Shown here piece by piece: positions 4,997 through 39,210 of a stretch of DNA of 41,355 nt. The stretch comes from a virus. Positions within the stretch are counted from its first letter, which is position 1, and every line of letters begins with the position of its first letter. Location of the stretch: positions 1 to 41,355 of the IMG/VR virus record IMGVR_UViG_3300025927_000014. One strand, 5' to 3'. Under the pieces are notes generated by a model. It did no database searches. It was not told the DNA's origin and saw only the letters and a list, made by a program, of their open reading frames with translations. Both the position numbers and the translations under genes were made by a program.

Positions 4997-5704
4997 ATGC
5001 CAAATGCGGTTATCCCCAACGACCCGACGCAGGGTCAGGAGTTTTTCTGGACCCGGCAGGGAATCTCGCTTCAGCATCTCTACGAGTACATCCAACTGGC
5101 GGTCGCGGAGGCCGTCGCCGGGACGACACCCGGCACCGGCGGTGGCGGTACATCGAACGTGGTGATCGGCACCGAGGCGGGCCAGGCTGCGGATGCTGCG
5201 GCCGTCTCGCAGGCGCTACTGGTCAAGGCGCCGCTGACGTCTCCGCATTTCGAGGGTGTGCCGACTGCGCCCACTGCAGTGCTTGGCACTAACACCGCCC
5301 AGTTGGCCACCACGGAGTTCGTCCTGGCCAACGGTGGCGGGGGTGGCGGCGGGGCCGGTACCGTGTCGCCCGCATTTACGGGCATTCCTACGGCGCCGAC
5401 CGCGGTCAATGGAACCAATACCACGCAGCTTGCGACGACTGCCTTCGTGGAGGCCGAGTCTCTGGTTCTGCAGGCGATCATCGACGCGCAGGCCGACCTG
5501 ATCACTGCTATGAGCGACCGGATCGCGCTGCTCGAACAGCTCGGCGCAAACATGGTCGCCATCGCTGGCGCCACATCGGCTCGCGTCAATCAGGTCGACG
5601 GAACTGCGCTGCATCCAGACTCGGTCGTCATCTGGTTCACCGATGGGTCGGACGCGGTCAATGCACTCAATGGCGACGGCATCTACAACCGCGCTCCGCT
5701 CTAA
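4997..5704 (+). CDS. Tail fibre protein with repeated fibre motif
   Basis: A 235-residue protein with two copies of a tail-fibre repeat at about residues 78-112 and 122-156. The shared core is SPxFxGxPTAPTAVxGTNTxQLATTxFV, the same style of repeat found in side tail fibres of many phages, including those of Gram-negative hosts. The copies are separated by a Gly-rich linker of nine or more glycines. A helical segment (about 157-190) follows, then a C-terminal domain ending in NGDGIYNRAPL. The N-terminus (WTRQGISLQHLYEYIQLAV) may be the attachment part. The role is probably a short trimeric fibre or a connector for the larger spike downstream. Confidence 0.7.
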   Translation: MPNAVIPNDPTQGQEFFWTRQGISLQHLYEYIQLAVAEAVAGTTPGTGGGGTSNVVIGTEAGQAADAAAVSQALLVKAPLTSPHFEGVPTAPTAVLGTNTAQLATTEFVLANGGGGGGGAGTVSPAFTGIPTAPTAVNGTNTTQLATTAFVEAESLVLQAIIDAQADLITAMSDRIALLEQLGANMVAIAGATSARVNQVDGTALHPDSVVIWFTDGSDAVNALNGDGIYNRAPL

Positions 5705-5719
5705 CCGAAGGACCCCAAC

Positions 5720-6076
5720 GTGACCCTGTCCGTCGCCTCCACCCGTGAGCTGCTGGCGCTGGCCTTTGCGGCTGGCGCTACTCACTTCGCGCTGCATTCC
5801 GCCACCCCGGCGACCACTGGTAATCAGCTCGGTAGTCGCGTGGCTATCACCTGGGACAGCACAACCACTGTCACCGTATTGCCGAGCACCAGCACCCCGG
5901 CCAACCGGCTCGATGCCAACAACGTCACGATCGCCTTGGCGGCCACCACCGCCGCGCCGTACGGCGCGTACTGGTCAGCGTCAACCGGCGGGACGATGCG
6001 CGAGACCGTCCTGCTATCTATCCCATCCGGCGCTGCTCGGAATGTCGACGTAGATCCGTCGTACTACCAGGCGTGA
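5720..6076 (+). CDS. Small virion structural protein
   Basis: A 118-residue GTG-start protein with AAGGA-like SD (AAGGA at 5708-5712). It has an N-terminal helix (SVASTRELLALAFAAGATHFALHSA) followed by Thr/Ser-rich beta strands. The 'LHSATPATTGNQLGS' stretch parallels 'LHTADPGAAGATAAA' in the protein at 4552, so the two are likely distant relatives. It overlaps the giant spike gene by four bases (GTGA), suggesting that both are made together; it may be a spike-associated adaptor. No enzymatic motif is visible. Confidence 0.6.
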   Translation: MTLSVASTRELLALAFAAGATHFALHSATPATTGNQLGSRVAITWDSTTTVTVLPSTSTPANRLDANNVTIALAATTAAPYGAYWSASTGGTMRETVLLSIPSGAARNVDVDPSYYQA

Positions 6077-9000
6077 CCACCCAGACCCTGGACGTCGATC
6101 CTGACGACCACTATCTCAACTCGACAACTCCGAGCACGGCACCGGCACCGACAGCAACGATCCATTCGTCGGATGTGCTCTGGGCATTGATGCATTTCAC
6201 CCTGCCCCCGGCACCCGCAGGTGAGGTGCTGATCAGTGCGTCGTTGGTCGTCCGCACCACTACCTCGGCAACCTCCGGGTCGGTTCCCTCGCACACGATC
6301 AGCCTGACCACGTCCTCGTGGTCCCAGGCGACGTCCTGGGCCGGGAATCCTGCGGGCGTAAACATGCGCCCCTCGCTCGGTACCGTGCTCGGAACCGTCC
6401 CCGCCAACACCTTGACCGATACGGTCTACACGATCCCACTGGATATAGCGACCATCGCGCCATTGGCGGGGTCGCAGTTCGGCATGGCGATCAACACTGC
6501 TACGGCGGGCGACAGCTTACAACTCTGGTCGTCGCGGGCACCGGTCACGGCGAATCAACCCGATCTTGTTCTTGTCTACGCTGCGGCGGGTTTCACTGCC
6601 GTCGTTACTAGCGAGGGACTGGCGAAGGGCGCCACTCTTGCCGTCCCATCCGGGATGACCTTCCCGCCCAAGGCGCAGGCTGACGCTTTGGTTGCTGGCC
6701 CGACGATCTCCTCGACCATCGGGATCGCCACGACGATTTCCGGTGCAGCCCTGATTCCACCGAACGACTCCCGGATTCGCTGGCGCGGCGCGACGGGGTT
6801 CGCGGCCGGGCCATCTGGGTCGACCACGGTCTGGGCTCCGAACAACAGATACAGCTACGCCTGGAACAGCCCCCCTGTATGGGGCATTGAGTTCGTCCTC
6901 AATGGCACCCAGGTCGAGGCGAGTTACCAGGCCGCATCCGGGGCGTACTCCTGTTTCCGGATCAAAATCGACGGCCAGCGGGTGACCGACCTGCCGGTTA
7001 TGACCACCACCCTCACTCCGGCTCCGACCGGCGGCCAGCGATTCATGCTCAAACTGACGTTCGGTACGTCAGCCGTCCGGCGGATCACCATCGAGGGTGG
7101 CTACTTGCCCTTCGGTGGGCTGTATGCCGGGGTCGGGTCCACGGTCAGCGCGCCACCGCCGTTCTCGACCAAGGTGGTCGTGCAGGGTGACTCGATCGTC
7201 GCCAGCTCGTCGGAGACACCAGGGCTGGGTAACGGAACCTGGCCGCTACGGCTGGCGAACTACATCGGCGCCGACGAAATGTTCAACGTCGGTGTCGGTG
7301 GAACCGGCTATCTCAATACCACGCCGGTCACATTCATCAACCGGATCGCGGACCTGCGTGTCAGTGCCACCCCGGCCGAGCGCGCCAACGTCATCATCTT
7401 CTTCGGCGGCGTCAATGACCGCACACAGACATCGGGCGCCATTACCACGGCAGCACAGGCAGTGTTCGACGCGGCCATCGCGGCAGAACCCCAGGCCGAG
7501 ATCTACGTGTTTGGTTGCTGGGTCCAGGCATGGCCGGTTCCTGCGGCGAACATCACCGTCGACAACGCACTCAAAGCCGCGGCGGCGGCGTCCGGCGTGC
7601 CGTTCGCCTCTTGCACCACCGGCAACTGCTATAACGCCGCAGGGACACTGATCGGCACCTACGAGCCGATCATCCGAAGCACGACCGATGTCGCCAACTT
7701 CATCGGCAACCCCGGCTCGACCGACACCCTGCATCCCAACGGGGCAGGCAATGTCCGGATCGCTGAATGGGCACGCGAAGTTCTCATCCTGATGGCGGGG
7801 GCACCCTCCCCTTTCGTCGCCGCCGTTAGCAGCATCGGCACTGCTACGGCGCGGGTCGCGAGCCTTATTGCTCCGACCGTCACGCCGGGTCGTACCCTCC
7901 ACTCCTACGATGCCGTCACCCTGACGGCGACGCTCCCGCCAGGCACGTCCGCCGACATCTGGGAGCGCCAGCAGATCGCTGGCGTCACCGTCACCATCGG
8001 CGGCGGGTTCGGCAGCTATTCGTTCATCGCCCCGCCGACCAAGACCGGCACGACGATCACGATCCAGATCCGGTACCAGTCCGGCGGTGTCTACTCCGAC
8101 TGGACGACCGTGTCGTTCCCCGTCGAACGGCATCAGTTCTGGCGGCGCGAGGGCGGGGTCGACATCCCCTACCTGACGGAGCACGGCGTCTCGGCGCCCG
8201 TCGATCCTTCGCCTAACCTGTTCTTTGCCCTGCCCGATAACTACGTCGGCACGAAAATGCTGTGGGCGCACTATTACCCGCCGTATCCGGTCCGGCTGGC
8301 CAACGTCGTTGCCGATGGCGTCGACATCGCGTCCTCTGATTACTACGTCCGGAACTACATCAACCCGGTGCCACTCGGGTCGTCGGAGCAGCAACACATT
8401 CCGTATGGCGGCATCCTCCGGACCAGGCCCATGCCACTGCCGGTCTATACCGGACCGGACACCTGGCAGAAGGACAACGCCCGGAGAGAGATCGCCGCGG
8501 CCATCGCAAACGGCGTGGATGGGTTCCTCTGTAACTCCACCAACGTCGCGGGCGACAACACCGTCCGGATCCTGGCGCTGCGGGACATCGCGGCGGCCGA
8601 GTTCCCCGGCTTCTATGTGACACCGATGCTCGACCTGTCGACGGCTTCCCCACTCACCGCCGTGCCGGATGCCTCAATCGCTACATATGTTGCAGGCTTC
8701 GCCAACCTGGCATCCACCAAGTACCTGCCCGATGGGCGCATGATCATCGGCTCATTCCAGGGCGACACTAAGTCCGCGGCATGGTGGACATCATTCATGG
8801 CCCTACTGGCATCCAGCTTCAACGGGCTGACCATCGCAGTCATGGGCTCCTACAACAGCTTCCAGACCGCGACTGAGGCGCACAAAACGGTTCTCTACGC
8901 TTCTGGTCAGTGGGGCTATGGCGCAGACCCCAACGTGCAGAACACATCTGCAGGACTGGCTACCGAGAAGGCTTACGCCGCAGCGCGCGGAATCCAGAAC

Positions 9001-11343
9001 CTCCGCACCATCTGGTTCCAGGACATCCGACCGTACGCCGGTGTCTACGACGAGGCCCGGAACACCGAAGCCCTGCGGGCGGCGTGGACCCACGCCATCG
9101 CGGATGATCCGGAGTACATCGAGCTGTGCACCTTCGGTGACCTGAAAGAGGGGTCCGACTTCCGGAACACCGAGTCGCGTGGGCTGGTTGGCCTCGACAT
9201 CTCTGCCTACTACGCCGCGTGGTGGAAGATCGGATCGCCGCCCGATATCCTCCGCGACGTCGCCTATCTGACGCACCGACAGGCCCCCCTGTCCGCCGTC
9301 CCGACTGGGCCACAGACCCAGACGATGCAACAGTGGAAGCCCCCACTCACGGGCGGGCGGCTCAACACGTCAACCCCTCGCGAGTCCGTCGAGGCGCTTG
9401 TGTTTCTGACCGCCCCCGCCGAGGTACGCATTACCAGCAACGGCACCACGCAGGCGTTCTCGGCGCCCGCGGGAATGTCGGCATGGCTAAAGGCCGCCGG
9501 GCTCGGCGCCGTCAAGGTTGAGGTCTGGCGCAACGGACTGAAGGTGGTCGACCTACCATCCCCGGTGGAGATCAAGACATCGTGGCAGAACGACCAGAGA
9601 GAATACGACGCCTTCGGTAGCATCCGCGGCACCACTGGTCAGCGCGCATCCTGGCCGCGGACCGTCACCACTCCACCGCCGTCCGGCGCTACCCCATGGC
9701 TGCCCTTTGAGTTGAACCAGACCGCGCTCAACCCACTGACCACCGGCAAGTGGACGCTCAGTCATCCGATGGACACCTACTACGTCTCCATCGACAACCC
9801 GCTCGACACGGTCCCGGACTACTGGGACAAGAACTGGATGTACTACCCACCGATCGGGGCGACGGGGCAGAACGTCTACGGCGGCCTGGCTCGGCAGCGG
9901 TACGCACGTCGACTGCGGCGACCCGAGGCATCCGGTCAGTTTGAGATCAAGGACTACCGCTGGGAGGTCCGCGCCGCCCGGTCGGCCGGGATCGATGCAT
10001 TCACCTACGCGGTCAGTCAGCGCCCGCCCGGCTCGATGTTCGTCCGGGTGCAACGCATGCTCACCGCATGCGCACAGGAGAACGCGATCAACTCGGTCAA
10101 GTTCTACTGCATCCCGTGGATTCTCGGGAACACCGGCGTCACCGGGCCGAAGCTGGCAGCCGGGCAGGTCATGTCGAACCAATTCGTGATCGACGCGGCC
10201 AACTACCTGGCCGGTTACTTCTCTCCGATGGTCAATGACCCGCTGTACGCCGGTGGGTTCTTGAAGATCAACGGCGAGGCCGTGTTCATGCCCTACAACG
10301 CGGAGGTAGCGCCGAACAACCAGGGGCTCACCTCGCCGCCCGCCGTCGGATCCTGGGGCGTCCTCTGGTGGCAGACCTTCCGGGATCGCATGGCCTCGCT
10401 GGGAACGCCGGTCCGGCTCTGGTTCACCCTGTCCTCCAGTGTGGCCACGCACTCGGCCAAGTTCGAGTCGCTGGCCTCAGCGATGGGCTGGTTCGGCTCC
10501 CGTGACTGGGCGCTCAATGCCAGCACCACCGGCACCAGCTACGGCGGTGCCAGGAGTTATCTGCAGGTCACTGCAGGACTGACGGCCCGCAACGACGGCG
10601 TGACCAAGATGCCGTACATCGCGCCCGTCTCCACGCAGGGGTATTACCCGCGCGGCAACACCGACAACACCGGCGGCTTCGGGTATATCTGGGAAGCCAA
10701 GGGCACCCAGAACTTGATCAACTCGTGGACGATCGGCGCCGTCAATCAATCTGGCGGCGTCGGCACCGAGATGGTCCAGGGCATCACCTGGAACGACGTG
10801 GCCGAAGGATCGCAGGTGTTCCCGTCGTCCGAGAGTGGTTGGCACTGGCTGGACCTGTTCCTGTACTTCAATATCAAGCACAAGACCGGCTCCTACCCGG
10901 TCATCGTGCGGGACGGCATCTACCTGACCCATCGCAAGCAGCAGACCACCGACAACCACGCGGGCGGCGGTGCCACCTACTCAGGCGTACAAACCAAGTT
11001 CGCCACTCGCTATCACGACCCGGCGACCGGCCATGCAGGCACGATCGAGTCCCCGATCCTGAACATCCTCGACGGCGTCGTATTCCTGACGGCGGCAGCG
11101 ACGGTGAATCTTGTGTCCGGCGGCGTGACGACGACGTTCTCTGCTCCGGCCGGGTTCAGCCGCTTCGAGTGCCCGCTCCGGCTGGGGACGCAGTCGGGCA
11201 CAGTAGTGCGCGCTGGCGTGACCGTCGCCAGTGTGACATCCCCGATCGTTGTCTCCGCGACTCAGGTCGTGGAGGATCTGACGTACTACGGCGCGTCGAG
11301 CTTCGCGGCGGTCCCTAGGCCCGTCCCCATTGTTGCGGATTAG
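6073..11343 (+). CDS. Giant tail spike: DNRLRE-like, SGNH hydrolase and two GH71/GH99-like glycosidase modules
   Basis: A 1756-residue protein built from recognisable modules. Residues 1-185 resemble a DNRLRE/CBM96 beta sandwich (LWALMHFTLP, TSSWSQATSW). Residues 235-360 form a beta domain shared with the protein at 13584. An SGNH/GDSL hydrolase follows: G372-D-S374, a GVGGTGY block near 406-412, N448 in GGVND, and D551/H554 in DTLHP. An Ig-like stretch spans about 590-700. Two TIM-barrel glycosidase-like modules cover about 717-1046 and 1237-1600, both starting with a YYPP-type motif and carrying CTFGDLKEGSDF and ITWNDVAEGSQVF; the latter resembles GH71 (TWNDYGES) and GH99-like enzymes. Each module is followed by a related beta sandwich. 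The likely role is binding, deacylating and cleaving host surface polysaccharide. Substrate is unknown; alpha-1,3-glucan is only suggested by GH71 similarity. Confidence 0.8.
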   Translation: MTTQTLDVDPDDHYLNSTTPSTAPAPTATIHSSDVLWALMHFTLPPAPAGEVLISASLVVRTTTSATSGSVPSHTISLTTSSWSQATSWAGNPAGVNMRPSLGTVLGTVPANTLTDTVYTIPLDIATIAPLAGSQFGMAINTATAGDSLQLWSSRAPVTANQPDLVLVYAAAGFTAVVTSEGLAKGATLAVPSGMTFPPKAQADALVAGPTISSTIGIATTISGAALIPPNDSRIRWRGATGFAAGPSGSTTVWAPNNRYSYAWNSPPVWGIEFVLNGTQVEASYQAASGAYSCFRIKIDGQRVTDLPVMTTTLTPAPTGGQRFMLKLTFGTSAVRRITIEGGYLPFGGLYAGVGSTVSAPPPFSTKVVVQGDSIVASSSETPGLGNGTWPLRLANYIGADEMFNVGVGGTGYLNTTPVTFINRIADLRVSATPAERANVIIFFGGVNDRTQTSGAITTAAQAVFDAAIAAEPQAEIYVFGCWVQAWPVPAANITVDNALKAAAAASGVPFASCTTGNCYNAAGTLIGTYEPIIRSTTDVANFIGNPGSTDTLHPNGAGNVRIAEWAREVLILMAGAPSPFVAAVSSIGTATARVASLIAPTVTPGRTLHSYDAVTLTATLPPGTSADIWERQQIAGVTVTIGGGFGSYSFIAPPTKTGTTITIQIRYQSGGVYSDWTTVSFPVERHQFWRREGGVDIPYLTEHGVSAPVDPSPNLFFALPDNYVGTKMLWAHYYPPYPVRLANVVADGVDIASSDYYVRNYINPVPLGSSEQQHIPYGGILRTRPMPLPVYTGPDTWQKDNARREIAAAIANGVDGFLCNSTNVAGDNTVRILALRDIAAAEFPGFYVTPMLDLSTASPLTAVPDASIATYVAGFANLASTKYLPDGRMIIGSFQGDTKSAAWWTSFMALLASSFNGLTIAVMGSYNSFQTATEAHKTVLYASGQWGYGADPNVQNTSAGLATEKAYAAARGIQNLRTIWFQDIRPYAGVYDEARNTEALRAAWTHAIADDPEYIELCTFGDLKEGSDFRNTESRGLVGLDISAYYAAWWKIGSPPDILRDVAYLTHRQAPLSAVPTGPQTQTMQQWKPPLTGGRLNTSTPRESVEALVFLTAPAEVRITSNGTTQAFSAPAGMSAWLKAAGLGAVKVEVWRNGLKVVDLPSPVEIKTSWQNDQREYDAFGSIRGTTGQRASWPRTVTTPPPSGATPWLPFELNQTALNPLTTGKWTLSHPMDTYYVSIDNPLDTVPDYWDKNWMYYPPIGATGQNVYGGLARQRYARRLRRPEASGQFEIKDYRWEVRAARSAGIDAFTYAVSQRPPGSMFVRVQRMLTACAQENAINSVKFYCIPWILGNTGVTGPKLAAGQVMSNQFVIDAANYLAGYFSPMVNDPLYAGGFLKINGEAVFMPYNAEVAPNNQGLTSPPAVGSWGVLWWQTFRDRMASLGTPVRLWFTLSSSVATHSAKFESLASAMGWFGSRDWALNASTTGTSYGGARSYLQVTAGLTARNDGVTKMPYIAPVSTQGYYPRGNTDNTGGFGYIWEAKGTQNLINSWTIGAVNQSGGVGTEMVQGITWNDVAEGSQVFPSSESGWHWLDLFLYFNIKHKTGSYPVIVRDGIYLTHRKQQTTDNHAGGGATYSGVQTKFATRYHDPATGHAGTIESPILNILDGVVFLTAAATVNLVSGGVTTTFSAPAGFSRFECPLRLGTQSGTVVRAGVTVASVTSPIVVSATQVVEDLTYYGASSFAAVPRPVPIVAD

Positions 11344-11354
11344 AGGAGCGCGCT

Positions 11355-11672
11355 GTGCCCCTGAATATCGGTTACATCGAGCTGGGTGGCAGTGGTGTCG
11401 TCGCTCGCGTCTACTACGACACCACCTTCACCCCAGTGGGTCCGGATCAACCCCTGATCGACGGGCCGCGCGGATGGTGTCTGGACCTGACGAACACCAG
11501 TGGAAAGGCAGCGCGGGTCACCATTGATGGGCTGACTGCGAACCCATTGACGGTGAACATCGGTGCAGGCGATCCGGTGACCAGTGGTGTCGGGCGTTCC
11601 CGCACTGCCGCGGAGCTGGCGGTATTCGGCTTCACCACTCGCGGCAACGCTGGCACCATCTCGATCCAGTAG
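11355..11672 (+). CDS. Small beta-rich virion protein
   Basis: A 105-residue GTG-start protein with a GAGGAG ribosome site at 11343-11348, eleven bases after the spike stop. Hydrophobic and polar residues alternate through most of its length (VVARVYYDTTF, CLDLTNTSGKAARVTIDGL), which suggests a beta sandwich. It has no signal peptide or membrane segment. No family is recognised. Position between a spike and a beta-sandwich tail protein suggests an accessory part of the adsorption apparatus. Confidence 0.6.
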   Translation: MPLNIGYIELGGSGVVARVYYDTTFTPVGPDQPLIDGPRGWCLDLTNTSGKAARVTIDGLTANPLTVNIGAGDPVTSGVGRSRTAAELAVFGFTTRGNAGTISIQ

Positions 11673-11682
11673 GCGATGACCA

Positions 11683-13098
11683 ATGGCGACGTGGATCAAC
11701 CATGTAGCAATCGCGGCACCCCGGAATGGGACCACGACGCACACGGTTGACCCGTCGTCCGGGACGGTGGTGACCGGCACACTGTTCACCCCAACTGCGG
11801 GAAGCCTGCTGGTAGTTTCGGTTGAGGGTGCAGTTACGAGCACCACTCCCGCCGGTTGGACACTGCCGTCCGGTGGGTCAGCGATCAACTTCACCGGTCT
11901 GTACGTCTGGTGGCGCACCGCCGCTGGTGGCGACACATTCTCGACCACGCACAACTCGGCGAACTACCCAGCGGTGTTCGATATCTACGAGTTCCCGGCG
12001 GGGTCGACATTCAGTGGCGCCGCCGCGTCGACAGCCGTCGCGTCCGGTGGTGCGGGACCTTCGGTGGCATCATTGACCGGCACGAACTTCATTATGGGCT
12101 CGGTCGGTAATGAGGCGTTCTCCACTTCATCGTCAGGCACCGTTGGGTGGGCGTCCGGGGTTGAAGCGATTGACACCCTGGCCGTCTTCGCGACCACCAG
12201 TGGCTACCTCTACTCGCTGACGTACCTCGAAGACTCAGCCCTGACGTCGTCGTCCATCGCGGCAACGATCAGCGGAGCGTCCAACCTGCAGGCCACCTAC
12301 GAGCGGCTGATGTTCGCGGTCAAGGTGTCCGGGGCGATCCCTGCAGCGATTGCACTCAGGGCCGCCGGGACCAGCACGGCAGTCGCCGCCACCGCAACCA
12401 CCTTGAACCCAGCAGTACCGGCAGGCACCACGACCGGTGACCTGTCCGTGCTGTGCGTGGAGGCCAAGCCGTACACCACCGCGATCACCACTCCCTCCGG
12501 CTGGACGAAGATCGGCGAGACCACCAATGGAACCACCGTGTCCGGCATCGACACGGGTTCCATGAAGGTCGCGATGTACGTCAAGGAATCAGCGACCCCT
12601 GGTGCCATCGGGGCGATCACCATGGCCACACCGGACTCCGCATGCGCGGTCATCCACTCCTACTCGAAGGACCCGTCCTACGCCTGGAACTACTCTGCGT
12701 TCACGACCGGTTCGCAGACAACCAACCAGGCCAACTACTCCGCGACCGGAGCCGCTGGCCTGGCGGTGGCCGCGGACGACTGGGTGGTCGCCGCGACCGC
12801 CGTGAACACCGACCTCGCGGTTGGTGGTCCATCCGCACAGAGCATCGGCGGCATGAGCGGAGCCACCCTCGCTGTCTCGGTGCGCACGGCGGGTACCTCC
12901 GACGGCCAGGGCCTGGTGACGACCGGCAACGACTCCCGGCTGATGGTGGTCGATGCCGACGTGACAGCGGGGTCCTCCAATTCCGCGCCGACGATGACCT
13001 ACACCCTCGGCAGCAGCTCATCGGGGGCGTCGATATGGCTACGGTTACGGGAAGTGGCCCCGTTCGTGCTGCTGATGTCACAGATGACCGGCTACTGA
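11683..13098 (+). CDS. Minor tail protein with two beta-sandwich modules
   Basis: A 471-residue protein made of two similar halves. Residues 1-215 and about 222-460 each begin with a Val/Ala/Thr-rich strand pair, then contain a PAGWT or PSGWT motif (STTPAGWTLPSGG; TTPSGWTKIGE), then aromatic strands and a C-terminal 'ERLMFAVKVSG' or 'ASIWLRLRE' strand. This layout is common in actinophage minor tail proteins. The same module, with PAGWTLLDQTDDG, is embedded in the Dit-like protein at 28314, so it appears to be a mobile tail-decoration domain. Function is likely structural or glycan-binding; no catalytic motif is visible. Confidence 0.65.
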   Translation: MATWINHVAIAAPRNGTTTHTVDPSSGTVVTGTLFTPTAGSLLVVSVEGAVTSTTPAGWTLPSGGSAINFTGLYVWWRTAAGGDTFSTTHNSANYPAVFDIYEFPAGSTFSGAAASTAVASGGAGPSVASLTGTNFIMGSVGNEAFSTSSSGTVGWASGVEAIDTLAVFATTSGYLYSLTYLEDSALTSSSIAATISGASNLQATYERLMFAVKVSGAIPAAIALRAAGTSTAVAATATTLNPAVPAGTTTGDLSVLCVEAKPYTTAITTPSGWTKIGETTNGTTVSGIDTGSMKVAMYVKESATPGAIGAITMATPDSACAVIHSYSKDPSYAWNYSAFTTGSQTTNQANYSATGAAGLAVAADDWVVAATAVNTDLAVGGPSAQSIGGMSGATLAVSVRTAGTSDGQGLVTTGNDSRLMVVDADVTAGSSNSAPTMTYTLGSSSSGASIWLRLREVAPFVLLMSQMTGY

Positions 13099-13108
13099 GG
13101 AGGACGAC

Positions 13109-13552
13109 ATGCCCAGATATTCGATGGGTGCGGTTGCGACCGGCGCCGGGAGCACCACGCTGCCGACGCAGGCCCTGGTCGGTGGATCCACGACGCGCCT
13201 TATGCTCCGTGAGTTGTCGATCGTCAACACTACTGCTGTCACTTGCACCTTCAAGTTGGTCAGGTTGACGGCAGCCGGAACGCCGGGCACCAGTCTCGGC
13301 GCCTCCCCGTACGTCACGGAAGGCGCGGCGGCGGTCGGCGTGGTTCGGCAGGTCTACACCAGCACCGCCCCCACGCAGGGTGCCGACCTCGGATATCGGT
13401 TCATCATCCCTGCCTCCATCGGCGCCGGGGTGGTGAGGACGTTCAACGAACCAGGCATCGCCGTGCCCATGGTGGCGGCGGCGGCATTGGCGCTGGTGGC
13501 CGACTCCGGGACGCCTCAGATATGCGCCATCGACTGGACCTGGGACGAATAA
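13109..13552 (+). CDS. Small virion structural protein
   Basis: A 147-residue protein starting at ATG with a strong GAGGAGG site at 13097-13103. It begins MPRYSMGAVATGAGSTTLP and ends in CAIDWTWDE. The pattern of a strand with 'LRELSIVNTTAVTCTFKLVRLTA', a loop with Pro/Gly, and an acidic aromatic C-terminus is typical of a family of about 130-150-residue phage structural proteins found near fibre genes. It is probably part of the tail-fibre complex. No enzyme motif is present. Confidence 0.6.
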   Translation: MPRYSMGAVATGAGSTTLPTQALVGGSTTRLMLRELSIVNTTAVTCTFKLVRLTAAGTPGTSLGASPYVTEGAAAVGVVRQVYTSTAPTQGADLGYRFIIPASIGAGVVRTFNEPGIAVPMVAAAALALVADSGTPQICAIDWTWDE

Positions 13553-13583
13553 TTCCCATCGCTAACTAGTGTCAGGATAAGAG

Positions 13584-16500
13584 ATGGCCGGGTTCATTCG
13601 GTACGGGGTACCGCACCCCCGGCCTGCCCAGCCAACCAATCGCTCACGCCTGATCCCTGCCGTCGCCGGTCCGGCGGCATTGCCCACCAAGCTCTCGTTC
13701 GAGCCGGTGGAGATCGCCGACACTCTGTCGACAGACGTGCCGACAGTCACTCCAACCGCGTCGACCACAACCACGATCGCCGGTGGCACGCTGGTTGCCC
13801 CGTCCGATTCCCGGATCCAGTACCGCGGCGCTGGCGGATTCGGGTTCGGTACTGGGTTCCCACTGACCACGGTTTACGCACCGAACTCCCGGTACGACAA
13901 CACTTATGCGACGCCGCCGGGGTTCTCGGTGACGTTCCAGCACACCGGCACCACGTTTGAGACGATGTATTACCTGTCCTCGACGTCCGGCTCGTGGCGC
14001 CTGAAAGTCGACGGCAAGCGGGTTACTGATCTGGCGCAGCCGCCGACCGGACTGAGCGCTGGCGGTCGACATCTCCGCAAGTTCGTGTTCCCGACCAGTG
14101 CGACCCGCGTCATCACCCTGGAGACCGGCTATCACCACTTCGGCGGGGTGTACGTCAACACCGCCACCGACACGATTGCCGCAGCTCCGGCGTTCAACGT
14201 CCGGGCCATCTTCGAGGGTGACTCGATTACCGGCGGCAGCGCGCAAACCACCGGGCTGATCAACGGCACCTGGCCTCTGCGGTTGTCCGACTACATCGGG
14301 GTGGACGACCCATGGAACGCGGCCCTCGGCGCTACGGGCTACATCGATCCCGGAACATCGGTCAAACTCAACGACCGGCTATCTGACGTCACATCCTGGG
14401 CACCTGACGTGGTGGTGGTCTGGGCCGGGTACAACGATATCGGGGAAACTGCTGGCACTGTTCAAACAGCAGCGACCACTTATCTGACCAACATCAAGAC
14501 GGCCCTACCTGCTGTCGAGATGTACGTCGTTGGCTGTTGGGTACCGATCGCCACCCCGACCGCCGGGATGATCACGGTGGACAACGAGGTGAAGGCCGCG
14601 GCGCTCGCAGTCGGCGTCCCGTTCATTTCCCCACTGACCGGCGACGTGTACGACAAAACCGGCTCGTTGATCATGAACATCGGCGAATGGGTCGATACAT
14701 CCGGCGATGTCGCCGCCTATATCGGCGCGGACAACGTCCACCCCAACGACGCCGGGAACGTCCGCATCGCTCAGATGATGCGGACCAGCTTGCTCCTGGC
14801 GTCGAAGGGTCTGGCGCAAGTTCTGGCCAGCCCGGTATCCACTACCGCGACCATCACTGCAGCCGGTTCTGTCAGCGCCGGTGGGGTCAGCAGCCCGGCG
14901 ACGGTCACGACTACGGCGACGGTCACCGCCAGCGGCGGCGGCGGTGCGGGCAGCACAACCACCGGCACCGCGACCATTACCTCCGCCGGTGTCGTCGGCA
15001 GATCCAGTGCCGCCGCGGTCACCGGCACGGCCACGGTCACCACCGCCGGAACCGTGGGCCTGAGCAGTGCCGGGACATCCACCGTCACTGCGACCGTGAC
15101 CCCTGCGGGTGTTGTTGGCCGCAGTACTTCCGCGCCCGTCCCGATCGCGTCAACGGTCACGGCCACCGGCACGGTCGCCACAAGCAGCGCCTCGACGGTC
15201 GCCGGGACCGCGACCGTCACCAATGCGGGTGTCGTCGGCAGGTCAACGTCGGCGACCGTCACGGCAGCCGCGGCGGTCACGTCAGCAGGCGTCGTCGGCG
15301 CGGTCGGTGCCGTCACGCTGGCGGTAACGGAATCCCTGACAGCGGCGGGCATCTCGGGTCTAGCAGGGGCCGCGACCCTAACTGCTACCGCCGCGGTCAC
15401 GAGCGCTGGTGTGATCGGCAAGTCCAGTGGCACCGCGGTCACCGCGACAGCAGTGACCAGCTCCGCGGGTGTGACGGGCACGTCCAGCGGTGCCAACGTT
15501 ACCGCCGCTGTCGCGACTACAGCCACCGGGTCGGCCGCGCTGTCCGGCGGCGCGATCATTGCTGCCACTGCATCGATCACGGTCGCGGGGGTTGTCGGGA
15601 CCAGTACCGGTGCTGCGATCACAACCACTGCAGCAGTGGCGTCGTCGGGTGTTGCCAGTTCCTCGTCCGGCGCCATTGTTTCCGCAGCGGCAACGGTCAC
15701 CACGGACGGGTCGGTAAACTTCAACCGCACCGCGAGCGTGCCGATCGTCGCGTCCATCAGTACTAACGGCGCCGTCGGCCGGGCAAGCACGGCAGTCATT
15801 AGCACCGCCGCCACGGTCACCACTGCCGGAACTCTCGGCGTCTCTTCGGCTGCCACTGTCGCCGTGACCGCCGCGGTCACCCCTGCGGGTTCCAGTGACC
15901 TGTCGCGCGGGGCAGCCGTCAATGCGGTTGCTGCCGTCGCGGCGGCTGGCACGGTCGGAAAGTCCAGCGGCACCCCGGTCACGACAGTGGCGACGGTAAC
16001 GACCGATGGGGTCGTCGGCCGGAGTAGTGCCGCGTCCATCGCGGCCACTGCGGCCGTCGCACCTACCGGGTCGGCCGACCTCAGCCGGGCCGCGACCGTC
16101 ACGGTTGCCGCGACCGTCACCACCAGTGGCGCCGCCGAACTGAGCCGATCGGCAACTCTGCCGATCACGGCAGTCGTAAACAGTGCGGGGAACGTCGCCA
16201 CCGCATCCGGGGTCAGCGTCACCACCGCGGCGACTGTCACATCGACCGGCTCTGCCAGCCGTTCCAGCGGCGCATCATTGACGTCGACGTTCAGCGTCAC
16301 GGCGGCCGGGGTCATTACCTCCGGCCTGGTCGCGTCGGCGTCCCGCCCAGTCACAGTGACCATCGCGGCGTCGGGCAACGTCGCCACCGCCTCCGGGGCG
16401 ACCGTCACTACCACTGCCACACTGACGGCGACCCGCGCCCTCGGCCTGTCGTCTGCCGCGACCGTCCCGGTCACGGCCACCGCTACGGCGACCGGTAGTG

Positions 16501-17498
16501 CGTCTCGCAGCACGACGGCCACGGTTACCGCAACGGCGGCGGTAACGGCGGCCGGTGTCACGGGTGGAGCGGTGGGGGTGTCGCTGACACCCGTCGCAAC
16601 CGTCGCAGCGGCGGGTGCAACCGGAGTCTCCGGTACGGCGGCCATCGCCGCAGCCGCCACTATCACCAGCGACGGGACCATTACTCCCGGCCTGACCCGC
16701 TCAACCACGGTGACTGCCTCTGTCGCCGTCACCGTCGCAGGCACTGTTGCGACCAGTTCTGGCAGCACTGTCACGACAACGGCCACCACTACTGCAGTCG
16801 GGTCGGCCGCAGGTTCCCGGACGGCATCCGTCCCGGTCAGTGCTTCGGTGATCGCCGCCGGACAGGTCAAAGCTACAGCCGGGACGTCGGTCTCAACGAC
16901 GGCAGCCGTTACCATCGTCGGCCTCCTCGGGGCGCCCGGTGGCACCGTTCTCACCGCAGCGGCCGTCATCGCTGCCAGCGGTCAGGTCGCGACCGTAGCA
17001 ACGGTGACCTTGCCGGTGGTCGCGACCACCACGGCTGCTGGCGGAGTCGGCACGTCCACTCCGGCGCCTGGGGTCATCACCGCCACGGTGGTCGCCGCCG
17101 GTGTGGTTGGCGTCAGTGCCGCCGCCGCGATCACCGTCGGGGTCGGTATCACTGTCACCGGCGAGCGGACCGGCGGCAGTGCGAGCCTTGTCGTTGCTGC
17201 GACCATCTCGGCCAACGGTCAGGTGCTCGCCATCTCCAGCGTCTCTCTGGTCGTCGGCGCCAGTGTCACCGGTGATGGCGTCGCGCGTGGGCTCGCCGTA
17301 TTCAAGGGGCCGGTCATCACGGTTGGCTCGCCCAGCAGCGCCGGACCGAGTATCGGTGGGCCGGGTCGACACGGACCCACGGTCGGTGTCCCGCGTGGCG
17401 ACCGGATCATTGGAGGACCGGGTCGCCACGGACCCAGCGTTGGTGGCCCACATGGAGTGCGAACAGTTGGCGACCCCGTCGACGTCAGTAGAGGATGA
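13584..17498 (+). CDS. Long tail fibre with SGNH hydrolase head and about 41 20-residue repeats
   Basis: A 1304-residue protein. Residues 70-205 form a beta domain paralogous to one in the spike at 6073 (SDSRIQYRG here, NDSRIRWRG there; KVDGKRVTDL here, KIDGQRVTDL there). An SGNH hydrolase follows: G212-D-S214, GATGY near 252-256, N284 in GYND, and D383/H386 in DNVHPND; the active-site set is complete. From about residue 416 to 1235 the sequence is Ala/Thr/Val/Ser/Gly only and repeats every 20 residues, with a core like ATVTxAGVVGRSSxATVT. The last 65 residues are Gly/Pro-rich with two GGPGRHGP units. The likely architecture is an enzymatic domain on a long beta-structured shaft. Attachment end and receptor end cannot be assigned from sequence. 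Confidence 0.8.
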   Translation: MAGFIRYGVPHPRPAQPTNRSRLIPAVAGPAALPTKLSFEPVEIADTLSTDVPTVTPTASTTTTIAGGTLVAPSDSRIQYRGAGGFGFGTGFPLTTVYAPNSRYDNTYATPPGFSVTFQHTGTTFETMYYLSSTSGSWRLKVDGKRVTDLAQPPTGLSAGGRHLRKFVFPTSATRVITLETGYHHFGGVYVNTATDTIAAAPAFNVRAIFEGDSITGGSAQTTGLINGTWPLRLSDYIGVDDPWNAALGATGYIDPGTSVKLNDRLSDVTSWAPDVVVVWAGYNDIGETAGTVQTAATTYLTNIKTALPAVEMYVVGCWVPIATPTAGMITVDNEVKAAALAVGVPFISPLTGDVYDKTGSLIMNIGEWVDTSGDVAAYIGADNVHPNDAGNVRIAQMMRTSLLLASKGLAQVLASPVSTTATITAAGSVSAGGVSSPATVTTTATVTASGGGGAGSTTTGTATITSAGVVGRSSAAAVTGTATVTTAGTVGLSSAGTSTVTATVTPAGVVGRSTSAPVPIASTVTATGTVATSSASTVAGTATVTNAGVVGRSTSATVTAAAAVTSAGVVGAVGAVTLAVTESLTAAGISGLAGAATLTATAAVTSAGVIGKSSGTAVTATAVTSSAGVTGTSSGANVTAAVATTATGSAALSGGAIIAATASITVAGVVGTSTGAAITTTAAVASSGVASSSSGAIVSAAATVTTDGSVNFNRTASVPIVASISTNGAVGRASTAVISTAATVTTAGTLGVSSAATVAVTAAVTPAGSSDLSRGAAVNAVAAVAAAGTVGKSSGTPVTTVATVTTDGVVGRSSAASIAATAAVAPTGSADLSRAATVTVAATVTTSGAAELSRSATLPITAVVNSAGNVATASGVSVTTAATVTSTGSASRSSGASLTSTFSVTAAGVITSGLVASASRPVTVTIAASGNVATASGATVTTTATLTATRALGLSSAATVPVTATATATGSASRSTTATVTATAAVTAAGVTGGAVGVSLTPVATVAAAGATGVSGTAAIAAAATITSDGTITPGLTRSTTVTASVAVTVAGTVATSSGSTVTTTATTTAVGSAAGSRTASVPVSASVIAAGQVKATAGTSVSTTAAVTIVGLLGAPGGTVLTAAAVIAASGQVATVATVTLPVVATTTAAGGVGTSTPAPGVITATVVAAGVVGVSAAAAITVGVGITVTGERTGGSASLVVAATISANGQVLAISSVSLVVGASVTGDGVARGLAVFKGPVITVGSPSSAGPSIGGPGRHGPTVGVPRGDRIIGGPGRHGPSVGGPHGVRTVGDPVDVSRG
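14829..17300 (+). repeat. Coding tandem repeat, 60-bp period, about 41 copies
   Basis: Within the fibre gene the DNA repeats with a 60-base unit (20 codons). Successive units start at nearly the same phase from about 14940 to 16250; a few short indels shift the phase later. Units are diverged at DNA level but keep GTCACC/GCGACG-type Val-Thr/Ala-Thr codons and a GCCGGT or GCGGGT (Ala-Gly) turn. Divergence at third positions with conserved protein pattern suggests selection on the protein. Confidence 0.85.
17355..17450 (+). repeat. Two Gly-Pro-Arg-His units at the fibre C-terminus
   Basis: Two copies of a 57-base unit begin at 17355 and 17412. Both encode GGPGRHGP followed by TVG or SVG, giving a 19-residue period distinct from the 20-residue Ala/Thr/Val repeats before it. 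Confidence 0.7.
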
Positions 17499-23618: not shown

Positions 23619-23628
23619 GGAGGAGGTG
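23619..23628 (+). promoter_or_regulatory. Shine-Dalgarno of the tape measure gene, overlapping its GTG
   Basis: GGAGGAGGTGAT at 23619-23630 matches the complete anti-Shine-Dalgarno sequence, but the only usual start codon, GTG at 23626-23628, lies inside it. A GGAGG at 23619-23623 would leave only two bases to that GTG. A non-standard start such as ATT at 23629 or ACG at 23635 would give other spacings. The real start is therefore open. Confidence 0.5.
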
Positions 23629-26600
23629 ATTCAGACGCCCATCGTCGGTAATGCCACGGTCCTGGTCCGCGTTGTCTCGAATCGCCTCGCCGACGACATT
23701 CGTGACGCCGTCAGGAACGGTGTCCGTGATGCCGGTGCGGACATCGACAAGGACGGCAAGGGTGCTGGCGAGCGCCTGAACTCCTCCATCGCGGAGGGTA
23801 TGCGTAGGGACGAAAAACTCCGCATCGCCGGTGAGCGACTGAATCTGGCCATCGCGGATGGTCTGCGCAAGGACGAGAAACTCCGCCAGTCGGGCGAACG
23901 ACTGAACGAGACCATCGCGAACGGCATGCGCCGCGATGAGGCCCTGAAACAGGCGGGCGAGCGGGCCGCGGAGCGGCTGCAGTTGGCCGTCGCCAACGGT
24001 CTGCGGCGGGACGAGGCGCTCCGCATCGCTGGTGAACGGCTCAACGAGTCGGTCGCCAATGGTATGCGACGTGACGAGGCCCTGAAGCAAGCTGCGGACC
24101 GGGCGGCGAACAAGGTTCAGACCGACCTTGCCAATGGCCTCCGCCGGGACGAGGCGCTCCGCATAGCGGGCGAGCGTGTCAATGAGTCGGTCGCCAACGG
24201 TATGCGCAGGGACCGGGCGCTGGATCTGGCGACGGACCGGGCGGCGGAGAAGATCAAAACCGATCTCGCCAACGGTCTACGTAGAGACGAGGCACTGAAA
24301 CTCGCGGGCGAGCGGCTGAATGAATCCGTTGCCAATGGCATGCGCCGTGACCGGGCCTTGGACCTTGCTGGCGAACGGGCCAGTCAACGGGTAGCCGAAT
24401 CGGTGCGCTCTGCCGCACAGCGTGACGAGTCCCTACGCATTGCCGGTGCACGGCTCAATGAGTCGATCGCGAACGGCATGCGGCGGGACAGGGCACTGGA
24501 GTTGGCCGGACAACGAGCGGCGGATCGGGCCGCCGAGGGCGTGCGAAGAGGTGCCCAACGGAACCGGGGTCGGTTACTGAGCCAGTTCCACGGTCTCGGC
24601 AAGGACCTGGGCGGCGCCTTCAACCTCGGCATCGGCGCGGCCCGGATGGGTAGCGCAGTCATCGCTGCACTGGTGACTGTGGGTCCGTCGCTCATCTCAG
24701 GCGCGGCGGCCATTCTTACGGCACTGGCCGGGGACATCGTCAACTTCATGGCGGCGATCGGGCCGGGACTGGCGGGCGCCGTTGGGGTCGGCCTGGCAGC
24801 CGTCTCCACTCTTGGATTGAACCTGGGCCTACTGAAACTCGCGTTTTCTGGTAACACCGCCCAGGCCAAGGCATTCAAAGCCCAGATGAACGACTTCAAG
24901 GAGACGCTCACCAGTACCTTCGCGCCCGGCGTGCTGACCGGATTCTCGGACTTGATTACCACCCTGAAAAACCGACTGCTCCCCGCGGTGAATGACCTGC
25001 TGGTGGAGACTGGCGTGGCCATGGGTGACATCGCTCGGCATATCGGCGAGACCGTCACCAGCGCCGACAACCTCCGTCGGATTCAGGGTATCCTGCGAAC
25101 CAACATAGGATTCCTGAGCAGCTTCAAGGCGGGCCTGAGTGGGCTGACCACCTCGTTCCTGATCCTGTTCAATGCCTCGAAGCCGTTCGTGGATTTCCTG
25201 GGCGACTCCATCAAGCGGTTCGGTGAATGGGCGCAGGCGTCTTTGGAGGTGTCCGAGGCCAACGGCAATCTGGCGAGCTGGATGGACCAGATGCTCCAGA
25301 ACTTCAAGGACCTGTGGGAGATCGTCAAGGATTTCGGTGCGGGGATCGGAGACATCTTCAAGGCCGCCGCTCCGGCCGGGAAGTCGTTGCTGGAGTCCAT
25401 TGCCGGTATTGCGGAACGGTTCCATGCCTGGACTTCCGACACCGGCAACATGGCCCGGATGACGGCCTTCTTTACCAAGGCCCGGACGCTGTCCAGCAAG
25501 GTGTTGGAGGTGCTCGGGGCGATCTTCACGGCAGGCGGGAGAGCCTTCGAGGGAATGGATCTCGGGCCGATCCTGCACGTCCTGGATGTCCTGAAGGACA
25601 CCGTAGCCCCGGCCATCGCCCGGATCTTCAAGCAGATCCAGACCGGTGCCGGGCCGAACCTGGTCAAGGTCTTCGACAACATCGGCGTCACTTTTACGAA
25701 GATCGCCGACTCGGGCGTGATCGAGAAGGTTGCCGCAGCGGTGAGTGGACTCATGGTCGTCCTGTCGGATTTCCTTGCCAGTGACTTCGGGGCCGGTATC
25801 GCGGCCCTCGGGCTGGCCTGGGTGCTGTTTGGCGGCATTGTGCGTGCCGTCGCTCCGGCTATCACCGCCATAGGGCGGGTACTCCTGGGGCTCTCGGGCA
25901 CGGCGGGCGTCGTTGCGGCGGCGGTGACCGCGGTCGTCGCGGTGTTCATCCTGGCCTGGAACGAGTCGGAGAAACTGCGCGCGGCGGCGGCCGACCTTTG
26001 GGCTGACTTGCAGTCCCGACTGGGGCCGATCCTCGAAGTCATCGGGGAGAGTCTGGGGCGCCTCTGGGAAGCAGTGCAGCGACTGGGCAAGGCGCTAGGT
26101 GATTTTCTCGCACCGATCATCTCTAATGTCTTGTCGCCCGTCCTGCAGGCGCTCGGCACCGTCATCGGCGGGGTCATCCTTACCGTTCTGGAAAACCTCA
26201 CTATCCTCGCGGATTTCCTGACCGGCGTGATCAGTGGCGACTGGCAGCCGTTCGTGGACGAGGTCACCAGGGTCGGCCTGTTGATTCGCGGCTGGTGGGA
26301 TGAGTTCACCGCCTGGTTCGGTCGGGAGTGGGACAAACTCTGGACCGAGACGCTGCCCGCCGCGTGGGATGAGTTCACCACCAACTTCGGCAGCGAGTGG
26401 GACACGTTCTGGACCAACCTGCCGACCGCGCTCAGTGACTTCGACACCGCCGTCACTGACTGGCTGGACACCTTGTTCACCGTCGATATTCCCGCGGCTT
26501 TCGGTGACTTCACTACCAACTTCGCTGCCGACTGGTCTAAGTTCTGGACCGAAGAGTTGCCGAAAGCACTGACCGACTTCGACGCATGGTCACTGGATAC

Positions 26601-28317
26601 AGCCGATCAATTCTGGAACACCACCTTCCCGAATATGCTGTCCGATGCTCTCGATGGGGTCTCCTTCGTGTTCGATCACTTCTGGGACACCATCGTTCCG
26701 GAGGCCTGGAATCGGTTCACCGCCTGGTTCGAGCCAGAGTGGGCGAAGTTCTGGGGCAGCGATAGTGACGCATGGTTGCAGCCACTCATCGATGGCCTCG
26801 GCGCTGACTGGGATGAGTTCTGGGACACTACCTTCCCGAAGGCATGGGACGATTTCAACACCTCGTTCGAGGCAGACTGGAATGAGTTCTGGGATGTCAC
26901 CCTGCCGAATGCGGTCGGGGAACTGGGCATCAATGTCCTGAACGCCTTGGATAGCTTCGGCAGTGATATCGGAACTTGGTGGGACGGCGAGGTGGCGACC
27001 TTCAGCACCGAGTGGAGCACCTTCTGGAACGACACGCTGCCCAACTTTGTCGGCCAGTTGGGCATCGACTGCCTCAATGCACTGACCAACTTCGGACCCA
27101 GTATCGGAACCTGGTGGGACACCTTTGTTACCGAACAGTCTGCAGACTGGGACCTGTTCTGGGGAACGACGCTGCCGGATCTCGTCAGTGGGCTGATCAC
27201 CGGCGCGCAGGCAAAGCTGGCCGAGTTCGACACGATGGTGAACGGCGCCTGGAACGACTTCACCGGCTGGCTCGATACCGCGTTCAGTGACTTCTGGGGC
27301 AGCACCCTGGTGGACTCCGTGGCCTCGCTGAGCATCAAGAGTGAGCAACCGCTGGATGACTTCCGAAACATGGTGGGGCGCAAGTGGGATGAGTTTACGT
27401 CGTGGCTCGGTGGCCTGTGGGACAGCTTCTGGGGAACGGAGCTGCCGGGTAAGGCGGAGACCGTCACACCGGCGGTGGCCACCAAGTGGGAGGCCTTCAA
27501 GGGAATGGTCTCCCGCAAGTGGGAGGAGTTCAAGAGCTGGCTGGCTGGACTCTGGAGCAGCTTCTGGGGAACGGAACTGCCAGGCAAGGCGGACTCCCTG
27601 GCCCCGGCGGTGGGTACCAAACTGGACGACTTCAAGGCCATGCTGGGACGAAAGTTCGAGGAGGCCAAGACCGCCGTTGTCGAAAAGGTCAATGGCCTGA
27701 TCAAGAGCGTGAGTGACCTCTTCACCGGCTGGTCTTTCCCGAACATCGATTCCATCCTGGGCACTGAGTTGGTGCAGCCCTTCAAGGATGCATGGGATGA
27801 AATCTCCAGGCTGATCGGTCAGATCAGTGGTGCAATCGCCACTCTCACGGGGGCCAAGTCCGTGATGGACCAAGCCAGGGCTGCGTTGAACAACGCGGTA
27901 GGTGGTACCGCAGTGCCCAAGCCGCCAACCAGCACTGCGCCTATCGGTCCCGTCAGCAGGCCGGTAAGCATCCTCGGCTGGGGTGATATCGGAGGTGGTC
28001 TACTGCGGGCCATGCAGCAACGAGTGCCCGGCCTGGCCACCGGTGGCATCGTTCCCGCCGTGCCCGGTGGAACCGTGTTCAGGCTGGGTGAGGGTGGACG
28101 GCCCGAGCGAGTGGAACCCCTTGCGGCGGATGGCCTTTCGGCTCGCGACCGGGCGATGATCAAGGCGATTGTCGGCACGACCGTGTCCATGATGAGCGGC
28201 GGTGGCGTCAATGTGGACGTCACGATCGGTGAGAAGGGCCTGGACAACTTCGTGACTCAGACCATTCGGCGCGAGAACTCCGACCTGGCAAGACGTGTTG
28301 GGAAGGTGAAACGATGA
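23626..28317 (+). CDS. Tape measure protein
   Basis: A 1563-residue protein, the second longest gene, right after the chaperones; it sets tail length. From about residue 60 to 310 it carries helical repeats of 21 and 25 residues with a GxRRDEALxxAGERLNESVAN core. Hydrophobic stretches at about 341-405 and 723-779 may be membrane-active segments used during DNA entry. Residues about 889-1322 are Trp/Phe/Asp-rich repeats of the form 'W..FW...LP' (for example WDEFWDTTFPKAWDDF). The C-terminus has a VPGLATGGIVPAVPGGTVF and RLGEGGRPERV segment typical of tape measures. At roughly 1.5 angstrom per residue the tail would be about 230 nm long, a rough rule only. The stop overlaps the next ATG by four bases. 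Confidence 0.9.
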   Translation: MIQTPIVGNATVLVRVVSNRLADDIRDAVRNGVRDAGADIDKDGKGAGERLNSSIAEGMRRDEKLRIAGERLNLAIADGLRKDEKLRQSGERLNETIANGMRRDEALKQAGERAAERLQLAVANGLRRDEALRIAGERLNESVANGMRRDEALKQAADRAANKVQTDLANGLRRDEALRIAGERVNESVANGMRRDRALDLATDRAAEKIKTDLANGLRRDEALKLAGERLNESVANGMRRDRALDLAGERASQRVAESVRSAAQRDESLRIAGARLNESIANGMRRDRALELAGQRAADRAAEGVRRGAQRNRGRLLSQFHGLGKDLGGAFNLGIGAARMGSAVIAALVTVGPSLISGAAAILTALAGDIVNFMAAIGPGLAGAVGVGLAAVSTLGLNLGLLKLAFSGNTAQAKAFKAQMNDFKETLTSTFAPGVLTGFSDLITTLKNRLLPAVNDLLVETGVAMGDIARHIGETVTSADNLRRIQGILRTNIGFLSSFKAGLSGLTTSFLILFNASKPFVDFLGDSIKRFGEWAQASLEVSEANGNLASWMDQMLQNFKDLWEIVKDFGAGIGDIFKAAAPAGKSLLESIAGIAERFHAWTSDTGNMARMTAFFTKARTLSSKVLEVLGAIFTAGGRAFEGMDLGPILHVLDVLKDTVAPAIARIFKQIQTGAGPNLVKVFDNIGVTFTKIADSGVIEKVAAAVSGLMVVLSDFLASDFGAGIAALGLAWVLFGGIVRAVAPAITAIGRVLLGLSGTAGVVAAAVTAVVAVFILAWNESEKLRAAAADLWADLQSRLGPILEVIGESLGRLWEAVQRLGKALGDFLAPIISNVLSPVLQALGTVIGGVILTVLENLTILADFLTGVISGDWQPFVDEVTRVGLLIRGWWDEFTAWFGREWDKLWTETLPAAWDEFTTNFGSEWDTFWTNLPTALSDFDTAVTDWLDTLFTVDIPAAFGDFTTNFAADWSKFWTEELPKALTDFDAWSLDTADQFWNTTFPNMLSDALDGVSFVFDHFWDTIVPEAWNRFTAWFEPEWAKFWGSDSDAWLQPLIDGLGADWDEFWDTTFPKAWDDFNTSFEADWNEFWDVTLPNAVGELGINVLNALDSFGSDIGTWWDGEVATFSTEWSTFWNDTLPNFVGQLGIDCLNALTNFGPSIGTWWDTFVTEQSADWDLFWGTTLPDLVSGLITGAQAKLAEFDTMVNGAWNDFTGWLDTAFSDFWGSTLVDSVASLSIKSEQPLDDFRNMVGRKWDEFTSWLGGLWDSFWGTELPGKAETVTPAVATKWEAFKGMVSRKWEEFKSWLAGLWSSFWGTELPGKADSLAPAVGTKLDDFKAMLGRKFEEAKTAVVEKVNGLIKSVSDLFTGWSFPNIDSILGTELVQPFKDAWDEISRLIGQISGAIATLTGAKSVMDQARAALNNAVGGTAVPKPPTSTAPIGPVSRPVSILGWGDIGGGLLRAMQQRVPGLATGGIVPAVPGGTVFRLGEGGRPERVEPLAADGLSARDRAMIKAIVGTTVSMMSGGGVNVDVTIGEKGLDNFVTQTIRRENSDLARRVGKVKR

Positions 28318-38568: not shown

Positions 38569-39210
38569 ATGGCAGCAGGCAACATCTCGATCACGGTCGA
38601 CGGCGTCGGTCCGATGGTTGAGACACTCAATGCGGTGGCGGCACAGCTTGCCACCCTGACAATGAAGGTGGACCAGCTCATGACCAGTGCAGCCGACCAG
38701 GCAGCAGCAATCAGCTCCTCGCTGGAGAACGTCCGCGGCGACATCGCCAATCTCCAGTCCAGCGCCAGCGACGCGCAGGCGGCCAGCACGGCGGCCATCA
38801 CCGACCTGCAGAACAAGCTGGACGCGGCCCTGGCTGATCAGTCCGCCGAGGTCCAGCGCCAGGTCCAGGAGGCTGTTGCCGCGGCCAATGCCGAGATCAG
38901 TGCCCAGTTCGCCGCAGTGGTCCAGCAGGCTCAGGATGTCGCGAACATCGTGCCGGACGCGACCACCCCGACCGAACCGGCGCCGCCGACCGAGCCCACG
39001 CCGGAGGAGCCCACACCGCCGGTGGACCTGCCGCCGAACCCCACCCCGGAGCCGACGCCGGAACCGCCGGTTGAGCAGCCCACCGAGCCGCCCACCGAAT
39101 CGACCCCGGACAACCCCCCGACCGAGCCGGTTCCCGACAACCCCACTCCCGACAATCCCCCGACCGAGCCCACGCCGGACAACCCTCCGCCCGGTGAAGT
39201 CAACGTCTGA
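38569..39210 (+). CDS. Coiled-coil protein with Pro/Thr/Glu/Asn tail
   Basis: A 213-residue protein in two parts. Residues 12-125 form a long helical coiled coil rich in Ala and Gln (MVETLNAVAAQLATLTMKVD, then AEVQRQVQEAVAAANAEISA). Residues 128-213 are a low-complexity tail of PTEP and PDNPPTEP repeats. There is no signal peptide or membrane segment. It is the last plus-strand gene before the terminator, 71 bases after the lysin. It could be a minor fibre, a spanin-like periplasm-spanning protein or a virion accessory protein; none is proven. Confidence 0.6.
   Translation: MAAGNISITVDGVGPMVETLNAVAAQLATLTMKVDQLMTSAADQAAAISSSLENVRGDIANLQSSASDAQAASTAAITDLQNKLDAALADQSAEVQRQVQEAVAAANAEISAQFAAVVQQAQDVANIVPDATTPTEPAPPTEPTPEEPTPPVDLPPNPTPEPTPEPPVEQPTEPPTESTPDNPPTEPVPDNPTPDNPPTEPTPDNPPPGEVNV

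Follow-up and report, generated by a model that had tools for sequence, protein, structure and literature searches.

Closest described systems

Bacterial adhesins of the GIN/DUF2807 type (PF10988; structures 3lyc, 3jx8, 3ljy, 3pet and 4opw) are β-solenoids with coils of approximately 20 residues and a GxGx[LV] strand core, while the two-partner-secretion proteins HxuA (4i84) and filamentous haemagglutinin (PF05594) form parallel β-helices. Among phages, SGNH esterases are found in fibre-type receptor-binding proteins such as gp63.1 of E. coli phage G7C and the fibres of Klebsiella prophages (PMC13123978). Fibre shafts determine the reach and cargo of a phage, and few shaft folds have been catalogued. 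Here, we describe a 20-residue tandem repeat in a 1304-aa SGNH-repeat protein encoded by the IMG/VR virus record IMGVR_UViG_3300025927_000014, analysed over its whole length of 41 355 nucleotides (positions 1 to 41 355; the window). The product of the gene, an open reading frame at 13584–17498 on the plus strand, is probably an actinophage fibre subunit for host adsorption, in which an SGNH esterase is followed by a β-solenoid spacer rod of 41 coils and a Gly/Pro-rich tail.

The protein resembles each of these systems in part. The GIN/DUF2807 adhesins share the coil length and strand core, but in those bacterial proteins the domain is short and the chain has 220–250 residues, whereas the phage protein carries 41 units. 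The likeness to the two-partner-secretion β-helices comes from alignment of the window model; only two of 40 phage repeat family members match PF05594, and weakly, while the window protein has neither a PF05594 match nor a secretion domain. In the Klebsiella prophage fibres that have been assayed, the SGNH domain sits in a C-terminal brush (PMC13123978), whereas in the window protein this domain is followed by approximately 900 residues that comprise the repeat and the tail. Gene 19 of Streptomyces phage LibertyBell (MH669006) aligns in its SGNH region with 24% of the query at 39% identity, but the 477-aa gene product ends with the SGNH domain and lacks the repeat. Conversely, gp51 of Methylophilales phage Venkman (MT375522) has the same 20-residue framework but only nine units, no enzyme and different N- and C-termini. 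A search of a limited collection of papers found no description of this 20-residue phage repeat.

A 20-residue repeat kept at the protein level

Autocorrelation and a chaining alignment with a self-trained profile delimited 41 tandem units of approximately 20 residues at 14823–17294 on the plus strand (residues 414–1237). The sequence-only reading of the window was thus right in its coordinates, its 20-residue unit and its estimate of about 41 copies. By chaining, 35 of the 40 unit spacings are exactly 20 residues; 22 occurs twice and 23, 19 and 18 once each. The two register slips are 22-residue units at 16266–16331 (residues 895–916) and 16632–16697 (residues 1017–1038), both on the plus strand, and the remaining small irregularities lie at the two ends of the array. 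Residue autocorrelation over residues 415–1245 (z-scores from 200 shuffles, lags up to 70) reached 0.326 at lag 20 (z 13.8), with z 13.7 at lag 40 and 12.5 at lag 60, and never exceeded z 4 at any other lag. Alanine, threonine, valine, serine and glycine make up 85.7% of the residues, charged residues 3.5% and aspartate 0.7%, hence the units consist mostly of these small residues and not, as had been proposed, of these only. Even unit columns are small or aliphatic (A, V/I/L, G/A) and odd columns mostly Thr or Ser (Fisher p = 2e-12), an alternation expected of a thin solenoid with threonine ladders on its outside. A 732-aa antisense open reading frame crosses the repeat on the minus strand (14771–16969) and is probably no gene but a side effect of the GC-rich A/T/V/S/G codons.

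This is an old repeat kept at the protein level and not the product of recent copying of a 60-bp stretch of DNA, since third codon positions are at background and Tandem Repeats Finder reported no 60-bp array here, even at a score of 30. Identities between units at codon positions 1, 2 and 3 are 0.53, 0.64 and 0.36 in register, against 0.42, 0.34 and 0.34 out of register. DNA autocorrelation shows a modest excess at lags 60 and 120 (0.470 and 0.480, versus approximately 0.34–0.41 at other multiples of three). The tandem arrangement is what recent DNA slippage, with a fast-changing copy number, would produce; however, even the most similar pair of units is only 67% identical in DNA, which together with the codon positions and the missing array makes such an origin extremely improbable. 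Third codon positions are saturated, yet the period of 20 has persisted across all 41 units, from which we conclude that selection maintains the pattern.

The SGNH domain, the tail and relatives of the whole protein

Besides the array, the protein has three further parts, in the order short N-terminal segment, SGNH domain, 41 units and Gly/Pro-rich tail. The SGNH/GDSL hydrolase domain lies at 14217–14759 on the plus strand (residues 212–392; PF13472, 54.7 bits against a curated cut-off of 32.9). Its catalytic residues, Ser214 (GDS), Asn284 (block III) and Asp383 and His386 (Asp-x-x-His, block V), are invariant among three aligned sequences. SGNH domains of Klebsiella prophage receptor-binding proteins have been shown to be esterases (PMC13123978), and this analogy suggests that the domain deacetylates host surface polysaccharide here. 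The C-terminal tail (17295–17495, plus strand) comprises 67 residues with GGPGRHGP motifs. The SGNH domain upstream of the repeat, the tail, the surrounding fibre cassette and the wider phage repeat family were all overlooked in the sequence-only reading.

The 20-residue unit is retained in the closest relatives. In L004, an SGNH domain 80% identical to that of the window precedes 33 units that keep the period but differ in their residues (ATVPMAGAGTLSVTA...), and a tail comes last. The repeat gene of L188, which encodes 895 aa and is the same in L292, has 28 units and a similar C-terminal tail; its product has no SGNH match in Pfam. The C-termini of L004 and L188 carry similar short [IV]T[IV]GxPxR motifs. 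The placement of the repeat gene differs: in L188 and L292 it is the last of the rightward genes, adjoining convergent replication genes, whereas in the window it belongs to a cassette between the maturation protease and the major head protein. The L292 stretch starts with a fibre-like gene. A search of genome contigs with the SGNH domain confirmed no relative.

A widespread and unlisted viral repeat family

Protein searches of phages with the window repeat alone found nothing up to an E-value of 10, probably because the low-complexity filter masks the repeat, and the L004 repeat behaved likewise. For this reason, viral contigs were scanned with two period-based DNA patterns, each of three motifs 60 bases apart, derived from the window (A-type) and from L004 (B-type). 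After removal of simple repeats and redundancy, at least 89 viral proteins with at least 1044 units were found to share the framework [GA]-x-[AG]-x-[ILV]-[STA]-[GA]-x-[GA]-T-[VL]-T-[AG]-x-[GA], with five variable residues completing the unit. Strict motif scans returned either no match or L004's own contig only, and of 61 pattern matches in a related-locus search with the repeat, none was confirmed.

Both scan patterns had been derived from sequences under comparison, the window and L004, so the register comparison was redone with only those units that lie outside the seeds, with 5000 column permutations; this is the fair test, as profile scores that include seed-anchored columns are biased. 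The similarity of A-type units to the window at register 0 was matched by one of 5000 permutations, and that between A-type and B-type units by none of 5000.

The family has a cultured representative: in Methylophilales phage Venkman, the nine-unit gp51 is encoded amid genes for tail fibre and tail collar proteins. Marine A-type proteins with matching ends have 8, 9 and 17 units, spaced strictly by 20 residues, in total lengths of 236, 256 and 416 aa, respectively. Together with the 41, 33 and 28 units of the window, L004 and L188, this bears out the earlier suggestion that copy number varies among relatives, in whole 20-residue units, and homologue lengths do follow the unit. The marine proteins L060, L075, L120 and L286 have a common N-terminus (M[FY]G.S.F.Q.P) and C-terminal Trp repeats of approximately 10 residues (SNTWT.VSA).

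The repeat had also been described as unlisted, and it is indeed absent from Pfam, PHROGs and NCBIfam. Among the members tried, no curated model in these libraries covers it, except that L188 passes the PF10988 (GIN/DUF2807) cut-off (31.5 bits against 24.2). The window repeat is a member of a widespread viral repeat family that is found in no curated library searched.

Predicted fold and proposed function

AlphaFold2 was run on 160-residue pieces with alignments of the phage repeat family. The models are all-β with two strands per unit but of low confidence, with a predicted local distance difference test score (pLDDT) of 55.3 and a predicted template modelling score (pTM) of 0.50 for the window, and 57.7 and 0.58, respectively, for the family member L139. 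The L139 model best fits GIN/DUF2807-type adhesins, led by 3lyc (Z 16.1, root-mean-square deviation (rmsd) 2.1, 151 residues aligned), with 3jx8, 3ljy, 3pet and 4opw at Z 14.0–14.8 and rmsd values of 2.1–2.5 across all five, although acetyltransferase left-handed β-helices reach similar Z-scores with rmsd near 9. For the window model, the best match was the HxuA secretion domain, a β-helix (Z 13.3, rmsd 2.3, 155 residues), a high Z-score that came only from a second aligner and not from Foldseek. A search with the family profile yielded 4opw (E 4.8e-5) and also 3ljy, 3lyc and 3jx8, and one with the L004 repeat sequence yielded 3jx8 (E 4.8e-4) and also 3pet; in control searches, the reversed L004 repeat gave nothing below 0.25 and column-permuted units nothing below 1. 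The window protein itself has no PF10988 match, so we do not file its repeat in GIN/DUF2807 but link it to that group through the phage repeat family only. The repeat is most likely a GIN-like β-solenoid shaft, the fold of the window protein being a low-confidence prediction supported by homology.

The sequence-only reading had favoured β structure over a coiled coil or collagen, a preference upheld by the lack of matching periods and by the low-confidence but all-β models. Specifically, there is no heptad period (lag 7 z −1.5) as in coiled coils, and no glycine at every third residue (lag 3 z −1.1) as in collagen. Nor did we see the approximately 15-residue repeat of the adenovirus-type triple β-spiral (lag 15 z −2.6), the approximately 8-residue repeat of the T4 gp5-type interlocked trimeric β-helix (lag 8 z −0.5) or the nonapeptide GGxGxDxUx of the RTX β-roll (lag 9 z −3.3, with the scarcity of Asp noted above).

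In the proposed arrangement, each 20-residue unit would form one coil, with the even columns packed inside and the odd columns exposed as threonine ladders, and the rod would be a stiff spacer that keeps the esterase at a distance from the opposite end of the protein. If standard β spacing applies and every unit makes one coil, the gain or loss of a unit would alter rod length by approximately 0.48 nm; 41 coils would place approximately 20 nm between the esterase and the C-terminal tail, and the 33 and 28 coils of L004 and L188 would span approximately 16 and 13 nm. That the protein is a fibre, and that copy number sets fibre length, we infer from the gene neighbourhood and the relatives; we also infer the spacer role, the location on the virion and the deacetylation of host surface sugars.

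More broadly, and tentatively, it is quite possible that a widespread, uncatalogued class of modular β-solenoid fibre shaft is common to tailed phages, whether by descent from the GIN-type adhesins of bacteria or by convergence with them. Through the gain and loss of whole coils, evolution would then tune how far an attached enzyme or receptor-binding head reaches, in the manner of a ruler. As the repeat is common in viral contigs yet uncatalogued, it could identify as shafts many phage proteins now called hypothetical. If one unit equals one coil, the relation of length to copy number would be directly measurable.

Alternative readings

Several observations weigh against a solenoid fibre related to the GIN-type adhesins. 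Both AlphaFold2 models are of low confidence and place the strand boundaries differently, Foldseek found no match to the window model in the PDB at E ≤ 0.001, and Pfam contains no repeat family that matches the window's units. In the register test, the similarity of B-type units to the window was not significant (481 of 5000 permutations), though register 0 ranked first. The cassette lies between the protease and the major head protein rather than adjoining the tail genes. Finally, of 40 further SGNH relatives, the 39 with an intact frame end at most 14 residues past the SGNH match, with no repeat after it; the enzyme is C-terminal in these other assessable relatives, with nothing beyond, so that either end of the window protein may face the virion.

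Long phage fibres are usually trimers, and the low confidence of the monomer models is what would be expected if the repeat were an interlocked β-shaft, of the T4 gp5 β-helix or triple β-spiral type, that folds in the trimer only. The family profile also matches a chimera of phage OBP gp146 and T4 gp5 weakly (6p2a, E 0.2). However, the 8- and 15-residue periods of such shafts are missing, and the searches by sequence and by fold alike point to single-chain solenoids of the GIN type, so that an interlocked trimer seems unlikely. The same modest pLDDT of approximately 55, with 86% A/T/V/S/G and few charges, would suit a disordered or loose low-complexity linker whose period is a mere relic of duplication. 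This is very unlikely: the period persists over 41 units despite saturated third codon positions, even and odd columns alternate strictly, the predicted strands are regular, and relatives with other residues retain the period and framework.

Other alternatives concern function rather than fold. The solenoid could itself be the binding surface, its threonine ladders recognising a glycan or a crystal-like surface, which would make the rod an adhesin and not a spacer. Thr and Ser dominate the exposed odd columns around a T-V-T core, the best fold relatives are titled putative adhesins, and Foldseek matches include ice-binding solenoids; but Thr and Ser are also the usual means of keeping a β-solenoid soluble, and the same protein already carries an enzyme. 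We regard a binding role as a doubtful but credible alternative. The gene immediately precedes that of the major head protein, which would fit a capsid fibre instead of a tail fibre, yet in the stretch read of L188 and L292 the homologous gene is distant from every head gene and Venkman gp51 lies among tail fibre genes, making a head location improbable. A host-adsorption fibre with a solenoid spacer remains the reading we prefer.

Gene neighbourhood

The fibre cassette spans 4997–17498, between the portal/maturation protease and the major head protein, and starts with a tail fibre-like protein (4997–5704, plus strand; PHROG tail fibre matches, best 1e-20). Comparison of translations showed that the L004 repeat protein has an N-terminus similar to the C-terminal part of a 471-aa cassette protein (11683–13098, plus strand). 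The 147-aa neighbour immediately before the repeat gene (13109–13552, plus strand) is 45% identical to the product of the gene directly upstream of the L188 repeat gene. The relatives of the head protein are from actinophages, the best match, from Arthrobacter phage Atuin, covering 71% of the query at 45% identity.

A further cassette protein of 1756 aa (6073–11343) brings together an SGNH domain and two stretches that match glycosyl hydrolase family 71 (GH71; PF03659, E 5.7e-35), a combination of enzymes that is unusual in the fibre cassette of a phage. Elsewhere in the window, the tape measure gene (23626–28317) contains tandem repeats of 138 bp (46 residues) and 135 bp (45 residues), and a 213-aa protein (38569–39210) has a repetitive C-terminal half rich in Pro, Thr and Glu (PTEPTPDNPP).

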